64,000 nt of DNA, from contig NZ_NXLR01000002.1 of the NCBI RefSeq assembly GCF_003364255.1, positions 1 through 64,000 on the forward strand. The letters are read 5' to 3'. Of the stretch, positions 5,168 through 59,249 are shown piece by piece. Within the stretch, counting starts at the first letter, position 1; each line of letters starts with the position of its first letter. The translations under genes were made by a program, and so were the position numbers. The notes beneath the pieces are model-generated. The model saw nothing but the letters and a program-made list of their open reading frames with translations, had not been told where the DNA came from and made no database searches. This stretch comes from Helicobacter marmotae (GTDB lineage: Bacteria; Campylobacterota; Campylobacteria; Campylobacterales; Helicobacteraceae).

Positions 5168-7534
5168 ATGAAAACACAAGGCTATAGCATAGAACTTTTT
5201 GGCATTATACAGGGGGTGGGGTTTCGCCCATTTGTGTATCATCTTGCTTGTGAGATGGGCTTACATGGATATGTGCAAAATTGCTATGATAGGGTGGTTA
5301 TTTACCTTGAAGTAAGGCATAAAAGCCAGATAGAAAATTTCCTAGATACACTTTTAAAGACTATGCCTCCACATGCGTATGTGAGCTCTTATCATATCAC
5401 TCCAAGTAAAGAATCGATATATAAAGAATCTATCCCCCCGGGTTTTGAAATTAGAGAATCTCAAAGCCAAAGCACACTTAGCCCCTGCTTTTTACCCCCT
5501 GATATGCGCTTATGTGAAGAGTGCTTAAAAGATATGAGAACAAAAGGGAGATTCTATCAATACGCTTTTACTACCTGCACATATTGTGGGGCGCGTTATT
5601 CTATTATTAATGCCCTGCCTTATGATAGAATCCACACAACTATGCGTAATTTCCCCTTATGCAAAGACTGCCAGAGTGATTATAGTACTGCTTCTAATCG
5701 TAGATTCCACGCTCAACCTACCTCATGCCTAAGCTGTGCTATTAGGCTTTATCGTATCGATAAAAACGGCACTTTTAAGCCAGAATCTGCCACAGATGAC
5801 ATACTTTTAATCCAAGAAATAGCACAAGTAATTAAGGCGGGCAAAATCGTTGCTATTAAGGGCGTGGGCGGGTTTAATTTAATCGTTGATGCGAGTAATA
5901 AGCAAGCCCTCTCTACCTTGCGCCAGAGGAAAAACCGCCCTAAAAAGCCATTTGCCTTGATGTTTAAAGATATAGCACAGATTGAAAGCCTAGTCAAACT
6001 CTATGAGTGTGAAAAACAAGCCCTCCTCTCCCCACAAGCGCCTATTGTGCTTTGTGAGAGGCATTTTCAAAAAGGAGGGGTGTTAGATGAGGAGAGCTTA
6101 GCATTAATAGCCCCAAGATTGCACACTTTGGGAGTTATCTTGCCCTATAATGGCATTATGTCTTTGCTTTTTGACTATTTAGACAAGCCCATTGTTTTTA
6201 CGAGCGCTAATCTTGCCTCTGAACCCATTATCACTAAAACAGATGAGCTTGTAGAAAAGCTCTATACACTTAATCCTATAGCAGATGTAATCTTAAGCTA
6301 TAATCGAAGCATTAGTCATGGTGTTGATGATAGTATCGTGCGCTTTATGGCGGGGGCTATGCGCCCTTTGCGCTTAGCTAGAGGCTATGCGCCCCTCTAT
6401 CTTCCTCAAAAAGGCATAAAAGCAGGGTTGGTTATGGGTGTAGGCGCACAGCAAAAATCAAATCTTTGCTTCATTGATAGCAGCAATCAAGCGTGCATTA
6501 GCCCATATATTGGGGATTTGCAAAGTGTAGATTCTATAAAGCGATATGATGAGGTAAGCGCATTTTTTCGCGGGCTTTATAAGCAAGATATAGCTTTGAT
6601 TGTACATGATTTACACCCGCAATACATCTCTACGCAAAAAGCACAAGACTTAGCAGAGCAAAACACTCACCTCTATGCCCTCTCTCATCATAAGGCGCAT
6701 TTTTATGCTATCTTAGCAGAGCATAAAGGCTTAGATGAGCCCGGACTTGGCATTATATGGGATGGCACTGGACTTGGTGAAGATGCTTGTATTTGGGGTG
6801 GAGAGTGCTTTTTGTATCAGCCAGGTGCAAGCTTAGAGCAGCAAATGCAGAGAATTTATCATTTTGATTATTTCACACTTTTAGGAGGGGAGAGCGGGAT
6901 AAAGGATATTGGCAAATTAGCTTTGAGTATGATGTGGCATTATGATGTATTTTGTGAAGAGCTCTTTCATTTTAGCTCATTAGAAATGCAAGTACTGCAA
7001 AATGCCTACAAAAGTGGTGTATATAAGCAAACAAGCTCACTTGGAAGGATTATTGATGGGGCAGCTTATATCTTAGGCTTATTGCAAACGCAAAGCTATG
7101 AGGGGGAGAGCGGGGCGTTATTAGAATCGTATGCCTTGCAAGATATGCAAGAGCACCAAGAAGAAGGGGATTGTATCGAGCCTTATGGGTTTGAGATGCA
7201 AAATGGTGTGATTATTTTTAAAGACATACTTTTAGGCTTGCTCCAAGAGAGGGCTAAGCCTAAAAGGGCGGCGAGAAGATTCCTTGAAAGCCTTGCTTAT
7301 ATTGCCCTCTCTTTGGCTAAAGCTAGCCCGCAAGCACTACAAACCCAGCACACTTTAAGGGTATATTTTAGCGGGGGTGTGTTTCAAAATAAGTTTCTTT
7401 GTGATAAAATCCAAGATTTATTCACTAAGGAGTGCATTCCATTTTATATGCACCAAGTCTTGCCATGCAATGACGCAAACATTAGCTTTGGGCAAGCGGT
7501 TTTTGGAGCGCGTAATTTTAAGGCACAAGTATGA
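5168..7534 (+). CDS. hypF: [NiFe]-hydrogenase maturation carbamoyltransferase HypF
   Basis: 788 aa from ATG 5168; a TTG at 5141 is in frame but has no ribosome binding site. HypF makes the thiocarbamoyl group on HypE that becomes cyanide of the hydrogenase active site. Domains in order: acylphosphatase with GVGFRPFVY at residues 17-25; two zinc fingers with Cys pairs 116/119-137/140 and 165/168-187/190; a YrdC-like domain at about 215-400; and a Kae1-like C-terminal domain with HKAHFYA, WDGTGLGED and FSGGVFQNKFL. All key motifs are present. It heads the hyp operon. Confidence 0.97.
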   Translation: MKTQGYSIELFGIIQGVGFRPFVYHLACEMGLHGYVQNCYDRVVIYLEVRHKSQIENFLDTLLKTMPPHAYVSSYHITPSKESIYKESIPPGFEIRESQSQSTLSPCFLPPDMRLCEECLKDMRTKGRFYQYAFTTCTYCGARYSIINALPYDRIHTTMRNFPLCKDCQSDYSTASNRRFHAQPTSCLSCAIRLYRIDKNGTFKPESATDDILLIQEIAQVIKAGKIVAIKGVGGFNLIVDASNKQALSTLRQRKNRPKKPFALMFKDIAQIESLVKLYECEKQALLSPQAPIVLCERHFQKGGVLDEESLALIAPRLHTLGVILPYNGIMSLLFDYLDKPIVFTSANLASEPIITKTDELVEKLYTLNPIADVILSYNRSISHGVDDSIVRFMAGAMRPLRLARGYAPLYLPQKGIKAGLVMGVGAQQKSNLCFIDSSNQACISPYIGDLQSVDSIKRYDEVSAFFRGLYKQDIALIVHDLHPQYISTQKAQDLAEQNTHLYALSHHKAHFYAILAEHKGLDEPGLGIIWDGTGLGEDACIWGGECFLYQPGASLEQQMQRIYHFDYFTLLGGESGIKDIGKLALSMMWHYDVFCEELFHFSSLEMQVLQNAYKSGVYKQTSSLGRIIDGAAYILGLLQTQSYEGESGALLESYALQDMQEHQEEGDCIEPYGFEMQNGVIIFKDILLGLLQERAKPKRAARRFLESLAYIALSLAKASPQALQTQHTLRVYFSGGVFQNKFLCDKIQDLFTKECIPFYMHQVLPCNDANISFGQAVFGARNFKAQV

Positions 7535-7884
7535 GAGAAGTTTTAGGTAATAATTTTCTTTATTCTCCACACGATACAATTACCCAACAAGGGGAATTCA
7601 CAGATGAAATACTTAATCACCTACAAAGGCAGTTATTTTGTCATTCTGAGCCTCCTTTAGGAGGCGAAGAATCTCTTTTAAACTTACTGGAAAGCCCACA
7701 GCAATTCTTCGGGACTAAAGCCCCTCACAATCACAATAAGCCTACCCCCACAAAGGGAGCTCCCACTAGGACTGATAATACTTCTAACCCACAAGATAAC
7801 ATTACGAGCCATTTTAAAAGCAATGTTTTGCTAGTCTGCCAATATGACAAACTCAAACAAACACAATATGAAGAGGAGATGTGA
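7531..7884 (+). CDS. Doubtful small ORF containing a dispersed repeat, between hypF and hypB
   Basis: 117 codons starting in an ATGA overlap with the hypF stop and ending across the hypB start. Residues ~35-55 are the translated form of the dispersed repeat seen elsewhere in the window (LFCHSEPPLGGEESLL), and residues 91-97 (SNPQDNI) recur almost exactly inside the methyltransferase at 58.1-59.2 kb. The ends (about 35 residues at each side) could be a native small gene with a repeat inserted, or all of it could be repeat DNA that happens to be open. I recognise no domain. Its value may only be to keep ribosomes moving from hypF to hypB. Confidence 0.3.
   Translation: MREVLGNNFLYSPHDTITQQGEFTDEILNHLQRQLFCHSEPPLGGEESLLNLLESPQQFFGTKAPHNHNKPTPTKGAPTRTDNTSNPQDNITSHFKSNVLLVCQYDKLKQTQYEEEM
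7632..7735. repeat. Dispersed repeat copy (TTGTCATTCTGAG / GAAGAATCTC type)
   Basis: This copy has TTTGTCATTCTGAGCC, the small palindrome CCTCCTTTAGGAGG, GAAGAATCTC, and then an inverted GATTCTTCGG-like half. The same word pair recurs at 21.5-22.4, 25.8-26.5, 37.2, 38.1, 45.1, 47.6, 49.4-49.9, 53.9 and 58.8-59.0 kb. Confidence 0.75.
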
Positions 7885-21427: not shown

Positions 21428-21578
21428 GGCAATTTCCCTCCATATCACTTGTGCAAACAATGCTTAGGATTATAGAATGAAACAACAAGGCAACCCCGAA
21501 GTATCTCTAAGCGAATCGCCAGTCGTGCTTTTTGGTGTTTTTGAAAGCGATTCTCTAGCAGATAAGAGAGATTCTTCG
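21428..21578. repeat. Left copy of a 151-bp inverted repeat, starting at the trpD stop
   Basis: By direct comparison this matches the reverse complement of 26416-26566 at 148 of 151 positions (differences near 21462, 21500 and 21517). Its first 48 bases encode the last 15 residues and stop of the radical SAM gene at 26.5-27.4 kb (ending HLCKQCLGL), so it is a duplicated 3' gene end. The rest is dispersed-repeat sequence. Confidence 0.95.
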
Positions 21579-21980
21579 CCTAAAGGCTCAGAATGACAAA
21601 GTAACGGAGGTTACTAGTAAATCCAACAGCAATTCTTCGTCCTTTATTGGGGGCTTAGAATGACAAAGTAACTGCCTTTCTGGTGTTTCCTCTAAAGAGT
21701 CTTTAGCGGATAAGAGAGATTCTTCGGTCAGGCTACGCCCTCCCTCAGAATGACAAACTTGGCCTACCCGCAAGGGAAATTATTTTGTCATTCTGAACCC
21801 CTGCAAGGGGTGAAGAATTGCTGTGGGCTTTCTGTGAATCATTGCTTTTTGGATTTCTAGTAGATTTTATCCCGTTGTCATTCTGAGCTTGAGAATCAAG
21901 CGAAGAATCTCTGTTAGAATTACTAGAAACTCTGCTACTATTGTCATGTCTTAGGGCTTGTAAGCCCGAAGAATTGCTTT

Positions 21981-22202
21981 TGGCGACTAGTGATTCCTTT
22001 AGAGATTCTTCGCAATGCTTGGAATGACAAACTTGGAGAGTCGTTAGTGATTCTCTTTTTTCTTTTTCTATAAGACCGATGGGCTTAAATGTGCAAAGTT
22101 TTATAAAATAATGAGGCTTATATACTTTACTTGTGCAGGCAAGCTCCAACCCCATAATAATGCTCCACAATAACACTCTTGCCCCCTTATATATCCCCCA
22201 GC
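21981..22202 (-). repeat. Long repeat module, copy A (minus orientation, diverged)
   Basis: On the minus strand this reads GGGGGATATATAAGGGGG, a diverged centre, TTTAAGCCC, CTTATAGAAAAAGAAAAAAG, then the TTGTCATTCCAAGCATTGCG form of the short repeat and GATTCCTTTAG region. Copies B (26064-26288) and C (49717-49890) share the same order. The inner inverted repeat is least conserved in this copy. Confidence 0.75.
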
Positions 22203-25742: not shown

Positions 25743-26063
25743 GCCTAAAGCCCTGCGGGGGGCGCTATTTTTGACTTTTTTACCTTTTTGGGTGGTTTGG
25801 GTTTCTCCTACAAAAGGTAGTTCGTTTGTCATTCTGAGCCTTTAGGCGAAGAATCTCTAAAGGAATCACTAGTCGCCAAAAGAGATTCTTCGGTCGGGCT
25901 TGCGCCTTCCCTCAGAATGACAACTTAAGAGAGTCTCTAGTGAATCAAAAAGCAATTCTTCACCCCTTATCAGGGGCTCGTGATGCCAAACTCATTACCC
26001 TTATGGAGCAAGTCCCCAACCTCTCCCAGCAATGAAGCAAGTCTTCACTGCGATGAGAAACAA

Positions 26064-26288
26064 TCGCACGAAGTGCCACCTCTTAAGGCGACGCCCTTGT
26101 GGGGGATATATAAGGGGGTAAGGGCATTAGTTGTATGTTGGACTTCGCGCTTGTGCATAGCACCAGCCCATACTTGCACATTTAAGCCCCTCCCTCTTAT
26201 AGAAAAAGAAAAAAGAGATTCGCTAACGACTCTCCAAGTTTGTCATTCCAAGCATTGCGAAGAATCTCTAAAGGAATCACTAGTCGCC
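26064..26288 (+). repeat. Long repeat module, copy B
   Basis: Begins with CGCACGAAGTGCCACCTCTT, then GGGGGATATATAAGGGGG, a centre of about 50 bases, CCCCTCCCTCTTATAGAA, a purine run, and the short repeat TTGTCATTCC...GAAGAATCTC. Its first 35 bases are nearly identical to copy C. TATAAGGGGG and CCCTCTTATA can pair to form a stem around the centre. Confidence 0.8.
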
Positions 26289-26415
26289 CACAGAGATTCT
26301 TCGGGGCTGAAGCCCCTCAGAATGACAAACTTTGCTACCCGCAAGGGAAACCCACACATAATAAACACCTGCAAGGAAATTTACTTTGTCATTCTGAGGG
26401 AGCACGAAGTGCGAC

Positions 26416-26566
26416 CGAAGAATCTCTCTTATCTGCTAGAGAATCGCTTTCAAAAACACCAAAAAGCACGACTGGTGATTCGCTTAGAGATATTTCGGGG
26501 TTGCCTTGTTGTTTCATTCTATAATCCTAAACATTGTTTGCACAAGTGATATGGAGGGAAATTGCC
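26416..26566. repeat. Right copy of the 151-bp inverted repeat
   Basis: Reverse complement of 21428-21578 with three mismatches; 4.8 kb lie between the copies. It includes the last 15 codons and the stop of the radical SAM gene. The single difference within that coding part (TGT here, TGC in the left copy) is silent for Cys. Confidence 0.95.
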
Positions 26567-27405
26567 TGTTTTTTGCATATATCTAATATCTTCAAAAGCC
26601 TTGCAGGTATAGAGCTCTAAAAAATCATGGGTAAGTAAAGAGCCAAAATTAATACTATTAAAATAGTCTTTGCAACACAGAATGAGAGAGCAATCAGCGT
26701 TAATGTAAATTTCATCAAATGGGGTATGACAGAGGGGTTTGTGATAGGTTTTTAGAGTAGCGATATGAGAGGGATTATGCGATGTTTGCTTTATCCCCCC
26801 CCCGTTAAATGCTCTTTATGTGTGATTACGCGCTTATAGGGCAATATCGCATTAATCAAATATGCCCTCTTACCAAAGATTTTTAAAAACGCATTTTTAG
26901 GATCTTGTGTATTATAGGGGGTGAGCACGGAGCTTATAAAGAGCTTCAAATGCGGGAATTCCTGCTCTTTTAATGTTAAAAGTGCGTAAAAATTATCAAT
27001 CACTTTTTGAAAATCATCTCTGCCATGTATGGCTTTATAATGCAGTGGGTCTATGGCATTAATAGAGAATTTTATAGAATCTAAGCCACTTTGCAGCAGG
27101 GCTTTGGCTCGCGCTGGATTCATAAGCGCGCCATTAGAGCTTATATACACATAAGGGATTTTATAGATATGTTTGCAATGCCAAATAATGGCTTCTAAAT
27201 CTTCATTTAAGCATACCTCACCCTTAGCAGATAGCCCTAGCTCATCAGTTGATACATAGGTTAAAACATTATCCATAGCTTGCATAAAATCTTTATAGCT
27301 TGTTTTGGCTTTTTTAGTGCGTTTATCCGGATTTGAGCAGAAATCGCACGCATGGTTGCAAAAAGTGCAAACATCAAAATTGATTTTTTTCTTGTATTTT
27401 TTCAT
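26519..27405 (-). CDS. Radical SAM/SPASM-like protein, phase-OFF at a poly-G tract
   Basis: As it stands translation stops at 26791 after 204 aa (ending HLTGGG), just behind a 9-G tract. In the next frame the coding continues without a gap, from IKQTSHNPSHIATLK through INADCSLILCCKDYF to the end HLCKQCLGL, stopping at 26519; 10 or 7 G would give about 295 aa. The N-terminus holds the iron-sulfur motif CNHACDFC (CX3CX2C) and ISSNGA. The C-terminal cysteines fit a SPASM/Twitch-type auxiliary cluster region. The substrate is unknown; relatives modify peptides or sugars. murI is 33 bases upstream. Its 3' end is duplicated after trpD. Confidence 0.85.
26795..26803 (-). repeat. Poly-C tract, 9 C (G on the coding strand), radical SAM gene
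   Basis: Coding strand reads TTAAC-G9-ATAAAG. It puts the gene out of frame; 10 G would restore it. The flanks match those at 51.2, 57.7 and 59.4 kb. Confidence 0.9.
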
Positions 27406-37984: not shown

Positions 37985-38180
37985 TCAATAAAAGAATGAC
38001 TAAAAGATATGCAAGAAGTGCGACTAGTGATTTGAGCAGAGATGTTTCGCATTTTGCAAATGCTCAACATGACAAACTTAGTTACCCGCAAGGTAAATTA
38101 TTTTGTCATGTTTAGAGCGTGAGCCGAAGAATCTCCCTTATCTACTATAGAATCCCACAGAGATTCTCCACCTCTATTTT
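37985..38180. repeat. Dispersed repeat copies upstream of rmlB
   Basis: Holds TTACCCGCAAGGTAAATTA followed by TTTTGTCATG and GAAGAATCTC, then an inverted GAGATTCTCC half. No gene fits in the 317 bases between the toxin and rmlB. Confidence 0.7.
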
Positions 38181-41598: not shown

Positions 41599-42608
41599 TG
41601 AAGCGGATATAAGCATTATTGTCCCTAGCTATAATCGCGCAAGCTTTATCACTCAATGCCTAGATTCTATCTTGGCACAAAAGTGTAGCTATAGCTATTG
41701 TGTGATTATCGCTGATGACTGCAGCTCTGATGGGAGCTTAGAGATTATTAAAGCTTATATGAAAGCCCATAGTAATATCTATCTTTTGCCATCAAAAACA
41801 AACCAAAAACTCTATAAAAATATTTTGCGCGCTTATGAGATGATAAAGAGTAATTACTTTTGCGTGCTAGACCCAGATGATTATTGGCTAAGTACTGATA
41901 AATTGCAAAAGGCTTTAGATTTTTTAGAGCAGCATAGAAGCTATAGCATTTACACGGGCAATACACAGATTCTAAAGCAAGATGGAGCGTTGGCTTTATA
42001 TATTAAAGGAGAGGCAAGGAGCTGTAGTTTTAGCGATTTTTTAGCACAAAGGGCATTTATGGGGCATACTTCAAGTGCAGTGTATAGAAATGTGGTTTTT
42101 AAAAATGGCGTGCCTAAAAAAATGCGCACATTAGAGAGTGAGAGTTGCGAGGTTTCATATCGTGGGGATAGCTTTAGAAATCTCCTTGCCCTCCATGAGG
42201 GGGAGAGCTATTTTAGCGCGGAAGTGGATAGTGTGTATCGTATCACTAGCAATGGGATTTTTCAAAGTCTGAGTACGCAGAGGCAGAGACTATTAAATGC
42301 GATGTTTTATAAAGATATGTATTTGTATTTTGAGGCGCGTTATGTGGAGCTTTTATACTTTGCTTATAGGAATTATAGGCTTTTAACCTCTGTGCCATTG
42401 CATGAAGTCTTAGAAAATGAGCATATAGATATGGCATATTTAGAGGAGTTAAGAAAGCTTGGTAAATTCTTTATCTCTTCCCCCCCCCCCCCCAGCAAAA
42501 AATGCACTCATAGCCATGCGTAGTAAGAATACAAAGCTAAAGTATAAAATGCTCCAAGCAATGGATAGATATATTCAACATTTTTTAGCAAAAAAGGGAG
42601 CATGCTAA
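41585..42608 (+). CDS. GT2 glycosyltransferase with a phase-variable C-terminal tail
   Basis: ATG 41585 is chosen for its GAGGAG 7 bases upstream; ATG 41570 is also in frame. GT-A fold: SIIVPSYNRASFITQCLDSIL, ADDCSSDGS, and LDPDDYW as the DxD metal site. At 14 C the protein ends at 42523 after 312 aa (SPPPPSKKCTHSHA). At 13 C it would read on through AKNALIAMRSKNTKLKYKML to 42608, about 340 aa, which looks more natural and ends near the next gene. It may transfer a sugar of this locus. Confidence 0.85.
42480..42493 (+). repeat. Poly-C tract, 14 C, GT2 gene 3' end
   Basis: C on the coding strand (Pro codons), one of two such cases. Longest tract in the window. It selects between a short and an extended C-terminus. 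Confidence 0.9.
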
Positions 42609-49310: not shown

Positions 49311-49983
49311 TGTATTTTGATTGAATATGTGCTTTATTGCTAGAATAAGATAAGGACTTATTGTCGCCTCTTGCGGGGCTTTGAGCGTGAGGAATTTCCC
49401 TTAGAATTGCTAGAAGTTTTATTAGAGATTCTTCGGTTATTACCACTCCCGCTAGAGGAGATAAACTTGGCTACCCGCAAGGTAAATTATTTTTTGGCAT
49501 CACGAACCCCTGCAAGGGGTGAAGAATTGCTTTTTGGATTTCTAGTAAATGCTATTATTTTGTCATTCTGAGGGAGTGAAACGACCGAAGAATCTCTGTG
49601 GGCTTTCTAGTAGGTTTGAAAGAGATTCTTCGGTCGCACTTCGTGCTCCCTCAGAATGACAACAAGTCCCAAATGTCTTTCAGCAGTGAGATATATTCTC
49701 GTCTAGGATAAAATTAAATCGCACGAAGTGCCACCTCTTAAGGCGTCGTCGGGGTGGGGGATATATAAGGGGGAGGGAGCGACTTCGCGCACGAGCGAAG
49801 CTCTTGCCCATACTTGCACATTCAAGCCCCTCCCCCTTATAGAAAAAGAAAAAAGAGAATCACTAGCGACTTTGCCTCCTTGTCATTCTAAACCCCCGCT
49901 AAGGGGTGAAGACTTGTTGTGGGTGACTAGTGATTTGCTTAGAGATTTTCGGCTGTGTGTTAGGGCAATAAAATAAAGCATTT
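49311..49983. repeat. Repeat-rich gap between the two arms of the glycan locus
   Basis: About 670 bases with at least four short repeat copies (around 49425, 49485, 49560 and 49630) and one copy of the long module. GGTCGCACTTCGTGCTCCCTC-type inverted halves lie at 49580 and 49640. No gene is supported. Confidence 0.75.
49717..49890 (+). repeat. Long repeat module, copy C (with perfect stem)
   Basis: TATAAGGGGGAGGG and CCCTCCCCCTTATA form a perfect 14-bp inverted repeat around a ~50-base centre. It begins with CGCACGAAGTGCCACCTCTT and ends in GAAAAAGAAAAAAGAGA like copy B. Confidence 0.85.
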
Positions 49984-53710: not shown

Positions 53711-54033
53711 TTTTATCCTTTTTGTGAATTTTGGTAGATTCTAGCAGAATTCCTTACTGATTGCATTAAGCTAAGGCTAGTAGCCATTAAGGAAATGCGT
53801 TTGTCAATTCTTACGAAAAGCTGAAAAGTCTCTTTTGAGTCCTAGTGATTCAGGGAGAGATTCTTCGGTCGCTATGCTCCCTCAGAATGACAAGTTAATT
53901 TCCTTTACAAGAGGGTTAGCCTACTCTATAGGGGCACGAAGTTTGCCATCACGCCCGCCTGCAAGAGCTGACAAACTCATTTCCCCTGCAAGGTAGGCTT
54001 ATTTCTCCCTCCTTATTTTCCTCCTTACTCCCC
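53711..54033. repeat. Dispersed repeats between the HAD gene and the ATP-grasp gene
   Basis: GGGAGAGATTCTTCGGTCGC and CCCTCAGAATGACAAGTTAA near 53850-53900, then TTTCCCCTGCAAGGTAGGCT near 53985. No gene; it splits the minus-strand operon into two blocks. Confidence 0.7.
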
Positions 54034-57220: not shown

Positions 57221-58143
57221 TTAGAAATATACTTCCTTATAACTCCTTGCCATTTTTAGCCCGTATGAAATAGGCTTTGGCGTGTGTGGTTGATGATAAA
57301 TAAACATCTCTATCATCGCTTCTACCCAATTCTCACTCGCTGCAAAGCTAAGGGCAGAGCCTCCACCTAATCGGGGGTTGATTTCTATAAAATAAACTTC
57401 TCCTGCTTGTGTGATAAATGCTTGTGCATTAATAGCCCCTACAAATGAAATATGTTTGGCTATTTTTAAAATATATTCATTTAGGGACTTGACATAGCAC
57501 ACCTCACCTTTAGTGGATTTGCCATCGCGCACCACAATGCGTGCTCTAGGGATAATATATAGAGGCTCTCCCTTGGGGTCAAAAAGGCAGTCGATTGTGT
57601 ATTCTTGCCCTGTGATTTCCTCTTGGGTAAGGTAGGAATCTTTTTCATTTATCCCCCCCCCCCCGTTAAAAAATCACTCCCTTTAGCTATGCCGACTCCT
57701 CCTCTCCCAAAACGGGGCTTTACAATGCCATAGTGCTTATAGAGCGCGCTTTTTGGCGTGGGGATATGGATTTTTTTAAAAAATTTATAGCTTTGCCATT
57801 TGTCTATAAAGGTTGCAATGGTGTGCGGAGGGGAGAGGAGCACAGAGATATGGTGTTTGGCAAACATCTCTATGCGCTCACTCCAGCCTAAAAGGCTCTC
57901 ATCAAGTGTGGGGAGGACTACATCAATATGATGCTTTAAGCAGAGATTGAGCGTTTTCTCCCATAAGTTTGGGTCATTTGCCTTGGGCATAAGGATAAAC
58001 TCATCAGCCTCTATTTTTGCGGCATTAAAGCTATCAATATCACTCGCACACGCAATATGCCCTGCTTGCTTGATAGCTTCAATGATATAAGAGCTGGTGA
58101 GGCAGCCACTGGCTTCGGTAAGGATTTTTAGAGGTTTTTTCAT
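57221..58143 (-). CDS. ATP-grasp ligase, second copy, phase-OFF
   Basis: The first 164 codons stop at 57649, behind a 12-G tract. In the next frame the coding continues (INEKDSYLTQEEITGQEYTI) and ends at 57221; 13 or 10 G would give about 307 aa. GIVKPRFGRGGVGIAKG is the ATP site and VYFIEINPRLGGGSALSF the metal site, now separated by the frameshift. It is related to the ligase at 54.0 kb. Overlaps the methyltransferase stop. Confidence 0.85.
57653..57664 (-). repeat. Poly-C tract, 12 C (G on coding strand), ATP-grasp (OFF)
   Basis: Coding strand TTTTTAAC-G12-ATAAATG, another member of the TTAAC-G(n)-ATA group. Confidence 0.9.
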
Positions 58144-59249
58144 ATATTTGCCTTTTTACATACGATGTAGTAGCGACTTTGTGTGGTATTTTTGAGTATG
58201 TCTAAATATGATTTCAGCTCTAAGGAGATAATCTCAAAAGACGTGTTGGAAAAAAGTTTTAGAATCTTTTCATAATCAAAAAAGCTTTGTATAGTGCCCC
58301 TCTCATGGGCTTCTTGCACTTCTATTTCGCCATTAAAGCTTTGCGTGTGGATATTTGAAAAGCCACTTGTGCTTTGCTCTCCAATAAGCGAGCAGAAAAA
58401 GTAAGTCTTGCTTACTCTTGCGATTTCTTTCATTAGGCTTTGAGCTAGGCTAAAAGGGAGGGAATCTAACACCCCATAGCTCAAAGTGAAGTCAAAAAAC
58501 TCATCTTCAAAAGGTATATGCTGCCCATCATAGAGCCTAAAATCCACATTGGCATTATGCTTTTTGGCAAGGGCTTTGGCTTGAGTTAGCGCATTTTGAG
58601 CAATGTCTATCCCAAAACTTTGAATCTTAAACTCACTCATTAAAATACTCTGCCTTCCAATTCCGCAGCCAAAGTCAAGCCCCCGCAAAGGAAGAAGTTC
58701 ATTATATCCCCCCCCCCCGCTGCTTTTAGAAGCTTGGGTGATTTGGTATGCTTGGGTGAAGGGGGATTCTTTTAAGGGGTTGGGTGTTTTTGGTTTATTA
58801 TGGGAATCTTTATTGGTCGCTAGTGATTCACTTAGAGAGTCTCTGGTAGATAAGAGAGATTCTTCGGGCATAAAGCCCTCGTGATGCCAAACTAATTTCC
58901 TTTGTGAGGTAATTTTGTCTTGCGGGTTGGACTTGTTGTCATGTCTTAGAGCTTGAGAATCAAGCGAAGAATTCACGCAGGCTTTGTGCGAATCATTATG
59001 ATATAGGGGGCTTTTAGAATCTGTTGTGTTGGTATTAGGGGCAGATTCAATAATTTCTCCATTTTTGCTAATGCCTATACCGGAGTGATAAAAGTCCCCG
59101 CGGTAGATAATATCGCTAAAATGCGTTTCATCTATCCTTTTTCGAATAAAGCGATTTAAAAAGCGCACGACTTCTTCATGCGGGTAGAAAATCGCATTTT
59201 CTCCCCTTGCATAACTTTCATTCCATTGTTTTGCTTTTATATCTTGCAT
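58140..59249 (-). CDS. SAM-dependent methyltransferase with an in-frame dispersed-repeat insertion, phase-ON
   Basis: 369 aa. Residues 1-70 and 182-369 read as a normal class I methyltransferase: YARGENAIFYPHEEVVRFLN, then GLDFGCGIGRQSIL (motif I, 190-203) and FDFTLSYGVLDSLPF. Between them, residues ~78-155 are polar, low-complexity translated repeat (SLDSQALRHDNKSNPQDK, PEESLLSTRDSLSES), absent from a standard fold. Gly178-181 come from 11 G, in frame here. The insertion probably forms a disordered loop; whether activity survives is unknown. Confidence 0.85.
   Translation of the reverse strand: MQDIKAKQWNESYARGENAIFYPHEEVVRFLNRFIRKRIDETHFSDIIYRGDFYHSGIGISKNGEIIESAPNTNTTDSKSPLYHNDSHKACVNSSLDSQALRHDNKSNPQDKITSQRKLVWHHEGFMPEESLLSTRDSLSESLATNKDSHNKPKTPNPLKESPFTQAYQITQASKSSGGGGYNELLPLRGLDFGCGIGRQSILMSEFKIQSFGIDIAQNALTQAKALAKKHNANVDFRLYDGQHIPFEDEFFDFTLSYGVLDSLPFSLAQSLMKEIARVSKTYFFCSLIGEQSTSGFSNIHTQSFNGEIEVQEAHERGTIQSFFDYEKILKLFSNTSFEIISLELKSYLDILKNTTQSRYYIVCKKANI
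58708..58718 (-). repeat. Poly-C tract, 11 C (G on coding strand), methyltransferase (ON)
   Basis: Coding strand AGCAGC-G11-ATATAATG. It lies nine residues ahead of motif I. Confidence 0.9.
58785..59012. repeat. Dispersed repeat inside the methyltransferase coding sequence
   Basis: Contains TAGAGCTTGAGAATCAAGCG (as at 21.9 kb), AAGAGAGATTCTTCGGGCAT and AGTGATTCACTTAGAGAG, the same words as the intergenic copies, yet stays open in the methyltransferase frame for about 76 codons. Confidence 0.85.

Follow-up and report, generated by a model that had tools for sequence, protein, structure and literature searches.

Repetitive extragenic palindromic (REP) sequences with a CGTC tag were defined by Di Nocera, De Gregorio and Rocco in 2013 (PMC3733652), who also noted TGTC variants. 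Members of this superfamily, which includes RPE-4 and RPE-6 of Rickettsia and dRS3 of Neisseria, carry an unpaired 5′ tag (CGTC, or the variants TGTC and CCTC) and have A-T at positions 1 and 2 of the stem. In the published families the stem is 8–9 bp and the loop 4–5 nt, and there is an unpaired CCA tail in most, though not all. REP inserts are commonly 20–30 residues long, reaching 82 at most, and these repeats apparently have no dedicated transposase. Neither GIY-YIG nor Helicobacter is mentioned in the text of that paper, and the words nuclease and transposase are absent from the main text of a 2025 REP survey (PMC12306157).

The repeat described here comes from a Helicobacter genome, and was found in a window (the whole stretch of DNA that was analysed) of 64 kb. 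Like CGTC-tagged REPs, it has a tag (TGTC) and a stem starting with A-T pairs, is present in high copy, forms pairs in opposite orientation, has intragenic in-frame copies and lacks a RAYT. Unlike those published, its units combine an outer stem of only 5 bp with opposed GA mismatches and a variable inner stem, and the tail is mostly CTC rather than CCA. The tag and the first stem bases place it in the CGTC/TGTC-tagged superfamily, where it is treated as a branch separate from the four published families, by tag and stem start only and without comparison with the family sequences. It shares with the Rickettsia palindromic elements (especially RPE-4 and RPE-6, themselves CGTC REPs according to PMC3733652) a palindromic structure, in-frame positions in unrelated proteins and absence from orthologues, while differing in lineage and sequence and in the length of the additions, its arrays contributing from about 100 to 616 residues. 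In REP-RAYT systems and REPINs (PMC3116915, PMC2817692), palindromic repeats also flank the gene for a DNA-cleaving enzyme (cleavage being inferred for the GIY-YIG proteins below), but there the tag is GTAG and the enzyme a Y1 tyrosine transposase, against TGTC/CGTC and a GIY-YIG nuclease here. Intragenic MITEs (ERIC, BOX and QMITE1; reviewed in PMC10969869) are likewise short mobile repeats able to give in-frame fusions; they have terminal inverted repeats, whereas for the arrays studied here neither a target duplication nor an outer terminal repeat could be clearly established.

The hairpin repeat and its distribution

The unit is a hairpin of the form TGTC-ATTCT-GA-(variable stem)-GA-AGAAT-CTC, and can be written as TTGTCATTCTGAG-(6 to 19 nt)-GAAGAATCTC. 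There are 56 distinct inner parts among 236 units, mostly inner palindromes. In DNA folding, the 5-bp ATTCT/AGAAT stem is followed by an internal loop, where GA residues are opposed, and then by another stem. Folding energies of single sequences are unremarkable for the shorter forms, so the case for a hairpin rests on covariation: 76 of 90 units with arms other than ATTCT/AGAAT still pair, compared with a mean of 9.0 and a maximum of 18 after shuffling. This test required the constant letters alone and not pairing, and the 90 units lie outside the window's genome. The arms are ATTCT/AGAAT in 331 of the 336 hairpins found, the tag is TGTC at every strict unit of the window, and across phyla the vast majority of covarying hairpins have a gtc flank. 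Units end in an unpaired tail, mostly CTC, and the commonest spacing class of neighbouring hairpins is +/- at 30 nt. One tRNA was the sole Rfam match in the window at the gathering threshold, and the hairpin fits no curated RNA family. The exact repeat DNA and its peptide words were absent from the openly licensed literature searched.

Exact units number 357 in this genome, compared with at most one in any of the ten congeners, and GTCATTCTGAG-like words occur 253 times in 333 kb against once in a Markov-1 shuffle. The exact repeat is present in 18 of 298 Campylobacterota genomes, the runner-up carrying 23 units. A scan of 85,000 genomes, for which about two chance matches would be expected by our own estimate, found the unit in Acidobacteria, Chloroflexi, Omnitrophota, Bacteroidales, Clostridia, Deltaproteobacteria, Planctomycetota, Cyanobacteria, Rickettsiales, candidate phyla and Campylobacter troglodytis, among others. 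While the copy number is a plain observation, an explosive amplification in this one Helicobacter species is part of the explanation preferred below, and is favoured by no great margin.

Neighbouring hairpins outside the listed ORFs keep phase in 102 of 147 cases, and stops amount to 2.7–2.8% in the array phase, compared with 5.7–8.3% in the other phases and a Markov expectation of 4.5%. Selection for frame in intergenic arrays is not claimed, because the copies are related and some arrays may be coding.

In-frame arrays in the methyltransferase, RNase R and other proteins

The class I SAM-dependent methyltransferase gene near the end of the window (Table 1) has its Pfam domain (PF08241) at residues 191–281. 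A search of eleven genomes of the genus provided three orthologues (in G007, G001 and G003). Those of G007 and G001 align to residues 1–69/71 and 177/178–368 with almost no DNA between, leaving a single clean gap that spans residues 71 (or 77) to 177 and closes at a poly-G tract. As both flanks match and almost nothing lies between them, these residues (about 101–107 codons) represent an insertion. The repeat is missing in all three congeners; G003 has an extension of its own at the site, unrelated to the repeat, which indicates that the insertion point is a tolerant linker joining the N-terminal part to the Rossmann domain. A G-run is found at the same place in congeners (L032, L033). The middle of the methyltransferase matches 130 places in its own genome, the best at 87% over 126 bp (E 2e-37), and contains two degenerate hairpin units. 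A structure prediction from an input of three sequences had a mean pLDDT of 35 and was left out of the argument.

Table 1. Positions of the repeat arrays, hairpins and associated genes
Feature	Position	Strand	Remarks
TGTC-tagged hairpin inside orphan ORF 7531–7884	7639..7672	+	
Intergenic hairpin-repeat array	21428..22100	.	Both orientations
Intergenic hairpin-repeat array	25800..26570	.	Partly inverted copy of 21428–22100
Variant hairpin, TGTC-ATGTT-GA...GA-AACAT-CTC	38042..38074	-	Compensated arms
Intergenic hairpin-repeat array	49400..49960	.	
Intergenic hairpin repeats	53821..53995	.	
Class I SAM-dependent methyltransferase gene with insertion	58140..59249	-	369 aa, frame open throughout
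Poly-G tract	58708..58718	-	11 nt in gene sense; downstream edge of insertion
In-frame insertion in methyltransferase	58719..59039	-	Up to 321 bp, residues 71–177; missing from G007 and G001 orthologues
Degenerate hairpin unit TTGGCATCACGAG-GGCTTTATGCCC-GAAGAATCTCT	58855..58890	-	B arm exact, A arm 4 mismatches
Degenerate hairpin unit TTGTCATGTCTTAG-AGCTTGAGAATCAAG-CGAAGAATTCA	58936..58975	+	
RNase R frame, GIY-YIG domain between two in-frame repeat arrays	L086:3998-7969 (G000:C17)		1324 aa

An earlier, sequence-only reading had proposed that this segment is built of the repeat words dispersed between genes, that the frame stays open through it and that the fold resumes at motif I. All three claims held, given the 130 genomic matches and the excess of such words, the uninterrupted ORF, and the LDFGCG motif that follows. 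Its estimate of about 76 codons (58785–59012) held only in part, as the real insert is wider. Conservation of the segment in orthologues, which would have refuted the proposal, was searched for and not found; alignment with the repeat-free orthologues of G007 and G001, the check it had suggested, showed the clean gap described above. The likeness it drew to the Rickettsia palindromic elements, in another lineage and with another sequence, also held, and is sharpened here to membership of the CGTC/TGTC-tagged superfamily. The behaviour of the segment supports this likeness; membership of an RPE family is not claimed, no sequence comparison having been made. The short ORF at 7531–7884, suggested as a possible second case, is confirmed only in part. 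It encodes 117 aa, lies between genes that read as hypF and hypB with overlaps of 4 bp, and has one hairpin pair, but it is an orphan with no known host protein: nine of ten congeners have no homologue, and the tenth gives one weak match (E=0.003).

Poly-C/G tracts occur in consecutive genes of surface-glycan type at 42477, 47083, 51225, 57654, 58708, 59391 and 60513 of the window. Several share a TAAC flank beside the G run, and some are at the same mid-gene position in congeners. The ATP-grasp type gene at 57221–58143 (-) is broken into two ORFs at its poly-G tract, and is likely phase-off in this assembly.

A search for the translated repeat elsewhere, also suggested by that reading, showed in-frame arrays in about twenty proteins. 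The 51 stretches that surround hits (478 kb) contain 22 frames, each 200 aa or longer, that hold arrays together with at least 300 bp of other sequence; the count is given as about twenty because one or two overlap the repeat solely at an end. It is a lower bound, the survey being built on searches and on the stretches around hits and not on the whole genome. Most of these ORFs have recognisable domains, and they include PurN, a radical-SAM HemN/HemW-like protein, a DNA modification methylase, several Eco57I-like methylases, glycosyltransferases, a sulfatase and RNase R. An M99 peptidase, with 4wcm and 4q6m as best solved relatives (which we take to be of the Helicobacter Csd4 type), carries its arrays in a linker that varies in congeners too. 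Phase is kept by all 73 consecutive hairpin pairs inside the array-bearing ORFs, which is partly a selection effect, since the ORFs were chosen for being open.

Three other frames have unusual arrangements. Two glycosyltransferase genes are joined in one frame via a repeat array, with part of the first gene recurring at the end (L072:2-2134; G000:C52). A 721-aa frame (L066:9056-11218; G000:C12) joins oxidoreductase (GFO/IDH/MocA) and cytidylyltransferase domains and has a repeat array as its C-terminal tail. Another (L076; G000:C24:6097-6762) has a tandem INQS repeat at its start and a hairpin array after it.

The RNase R frame has 1324 aa in this genome and 648–698 aa in ten congeners, all ten of which lack residues ~105–720, an in-frame insertion of ~616 residues. 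A second RNase R copy was searched for in this genome and not found. The insertion consists of an array, a GIY-YIG domain (PF01541, 41.7 bits against a cut-off of 22.6) and another array, after which the RNase R sequence resumes correctly. The sole start codon near the beginning of the GIY-YIG domain is the Met of YIMANK, and the domain is therefore probably read as part of RNase R. It is the only GIY-YIG copy found in this genome, and it led to the stand-alone loci and their flanking repeats.

Stand-alone GIY-YIG genes flanked by C-REPs

Stand-alone homologues of the GIY-YIG domain occur in 18 of 298 Campylobacterota genomes (a count that includes the window's genome). They are also present in 35 of the 115 Alphaproteobacteria searched, and in a set of 50 repeat-bearing genomes from many phyla 32 have them. 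R and E are among the residues that never vary (100%) in 119 GIY proteins. Tagged palindromic repeats of the kind described above (C-REPs, defined strictly by the tag plus either a stem that starts with A and has 7 bp or more, or the 5+GA form) lie within 200 bp on both sides of 39 of 120 GIY loci, 33 of them in opposite orientation, compared with 0.24 such cases expected from random windows of the same loci (summed mean). By group, both sides are occupied in 6/20 loci of Campylobacterota, 19/50 of many phyla and 14/50 of Alphaproteobacteria; the many-phyla genomes were picked for carrying the repeat, whereas the other two samples were not. Two of the 120 loci, L278 and L331, are the same place. 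No strict C-REP is found within 200 bp on either side of 55 loci, many of which carry variants that the strict finder misses.

The pattern is also seen without a motif. Inverted repeats scoring at least 16 flank 42 of 119 GIY genes, compared with 3 of 595 random windows; one of the 42 cases (L258) is an artefact of an N run. Both arms carry a [CT]GTCA tag in 28 of the 42, and the arms are mostly C-REPs, some of them overlooked by the strict finder. Uninterrupted and interrupted stem forms both flank GIY genes. At several loci no inverted repeat spanning the gene exceeds the C-REP pair in length, and this pair comes within 3–20 bp of the GIY match on one side or both. Among repeat-bearing contigs not selected for GIY, the one ORF with opposite REPs on both sides was a GIY-YIG gene (n=1). 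Across the 298 Campylobacterota genomes, 5 have both GIY and the exact repeat, 13 only GIY and 13 only the repeat (odds ratio 7.9, p=0.002), so the overlap is only partial.

The two REPs of a locus are matched: their similarity is 0.93 within a locus and 0.23 between loci (p=1.6e-20), and in genomes with several GIY copies 0.85 within and 0.36 between (p=1.9e-5). GIY protein identity correlates with REP similarity across loci (rho 0.29, 0 of 2000 permutations), and shared ancestry contributes to this correlation. Stand-alone GIY-YIG genes between matched, inverted C-REPs recur in many lineages.

A deltaproteobacterial MAG (G328) carries four homologous TIR-REP-GIY-REP-TIR copies at unrelated sites (L272, L349, L350 and L351). 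The unit is roughly 0.7 kb, homology among the copies stops at both ends, and short CATAAGCGCTAAC-type terminal inverted repeats bound it. As these lie outside the REPs, another transposase could move the unit; among the GIY loci searched, no GIY gene outside G328 is flanked by a repeat of this type.

The openly licensed literature searched contained no joint report of GIY-YIG and repetitive extragenic palindromic sequences, and nothing relevant on GIY-YIG and RAYT, judged from titles and abstracts. No earlier report of the link was therefore found there, and reports elsewhere are possible.

A candidate mobiliser and alternative explanations

The account that we prefer, by a modest margin, has two parts. 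In the first, TGTC-tagged C-REPs are a non-autonomous mobile element and make up the methyltransferase insert as a small array; in the second, the GIY-YIG nuclease is the first concrete candidate for the mobiliser of C-REPs. The association is shown; cleavage and mobilisation are inferred. The GIY-YIG protein would recognise the tag and hairpin of its cognate C-REP, nick there, and move or amplify REPs in trans, a role parallel to that thought for RAYT tyrosine transposases with GTAG REPs. Arrays would then grow by repeated insertion or recombination. In-frame insertions at linkers and loops are proposed to survive because the array is largely stop-free in one phase and encodes a hydrophilic segment of polar residues. 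For the extra methyltransferase residues, toleration is the simplest view, and is offered as no more than a possibility. A RAYT/Y1 transposase as mobiliser was rejected, as none occurs in the genus (a Y1_Tnp match in 0 of 11 genomes).

A bolder reading, which could as easily prove wrong as right, is that C-REP and GIY-YIG gene together form a widespread minimal mobile element (REP, nuclease, inverted REP), the stop-poor non-autonomous copies of which act as portable linkers that lengthen proteins, the methyltransferase and RNase R being examples. On this reading the tag and hairpin are recognised and spread by a GIY-YIG enzyme in place of a tyrosine transposase.

Of the alternatives, the one that survives best is that the GIY-YIG gene rides along as a selfish passenger of the homing type, cutting C-REPs and settling among them, and that something else moves the C-REPs. 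This remains possible. GIY-YIG nucleases are classic homing endonucleases, and 13 of the 298 Campylobacterota genomes have C-REPs without a detected GIY homologue. Against it, the REPs around GIY genes are whole, not split, and inverted; GIY copies of one genome carry different, internally matched REP pairs; and both REPs travelled with each of the four G328 copies.

It is less probable that REP-GIY-REP is cargo, with a trans-acting transposase working on outer terminal inverted repeats and the nuclease serving an unrelated role. The terminal repeats of G328 fit this explanation, but they were found flanking no GIY gene of another genome, whereas C-REPs recur across lineages, and at several loci no inverted repeat across the gene is longer than the C-REP pair.

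The in-frame arrays could be assembly artefacts of a repeat-rich draft genome (61 contigs, with several contig ends falling in repeats), which we consider very improbable. The frame is open through the array in about 20 genes, and the hairpin pairs are all in phase (73/73, in ORFs chosen for being open). RNase R and similar genes resume correctly past the insert, and the units in the methyltransferase insert are degenerate rather than fresh, collapsed copies.

An ordinary fast-evolving linker, repeat-like only by base composition, would fit a variable site with an unrelated extension in G003, but is practically ruled out by the orthologue gap and by genomic matches that are, at best, 87–90% identical over about 90–126 bp, with two hairpin units and their arms inside the segment.

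CGTC REPs, known since 2013 without a mobilising enzyme, include the Rickettsia elements that lengthen proteins. With the GIY-YIG candidate, paired with the repeat in many lineages, the question of their mobiliser becomes testable at the bench. This Helicobacter genome is an extreme natural case of a repeat rewriting proteins, with about twenty genes affected and a single-copy RNase R extended to almost twice its length, and it can show how much addition proteins tolerate.
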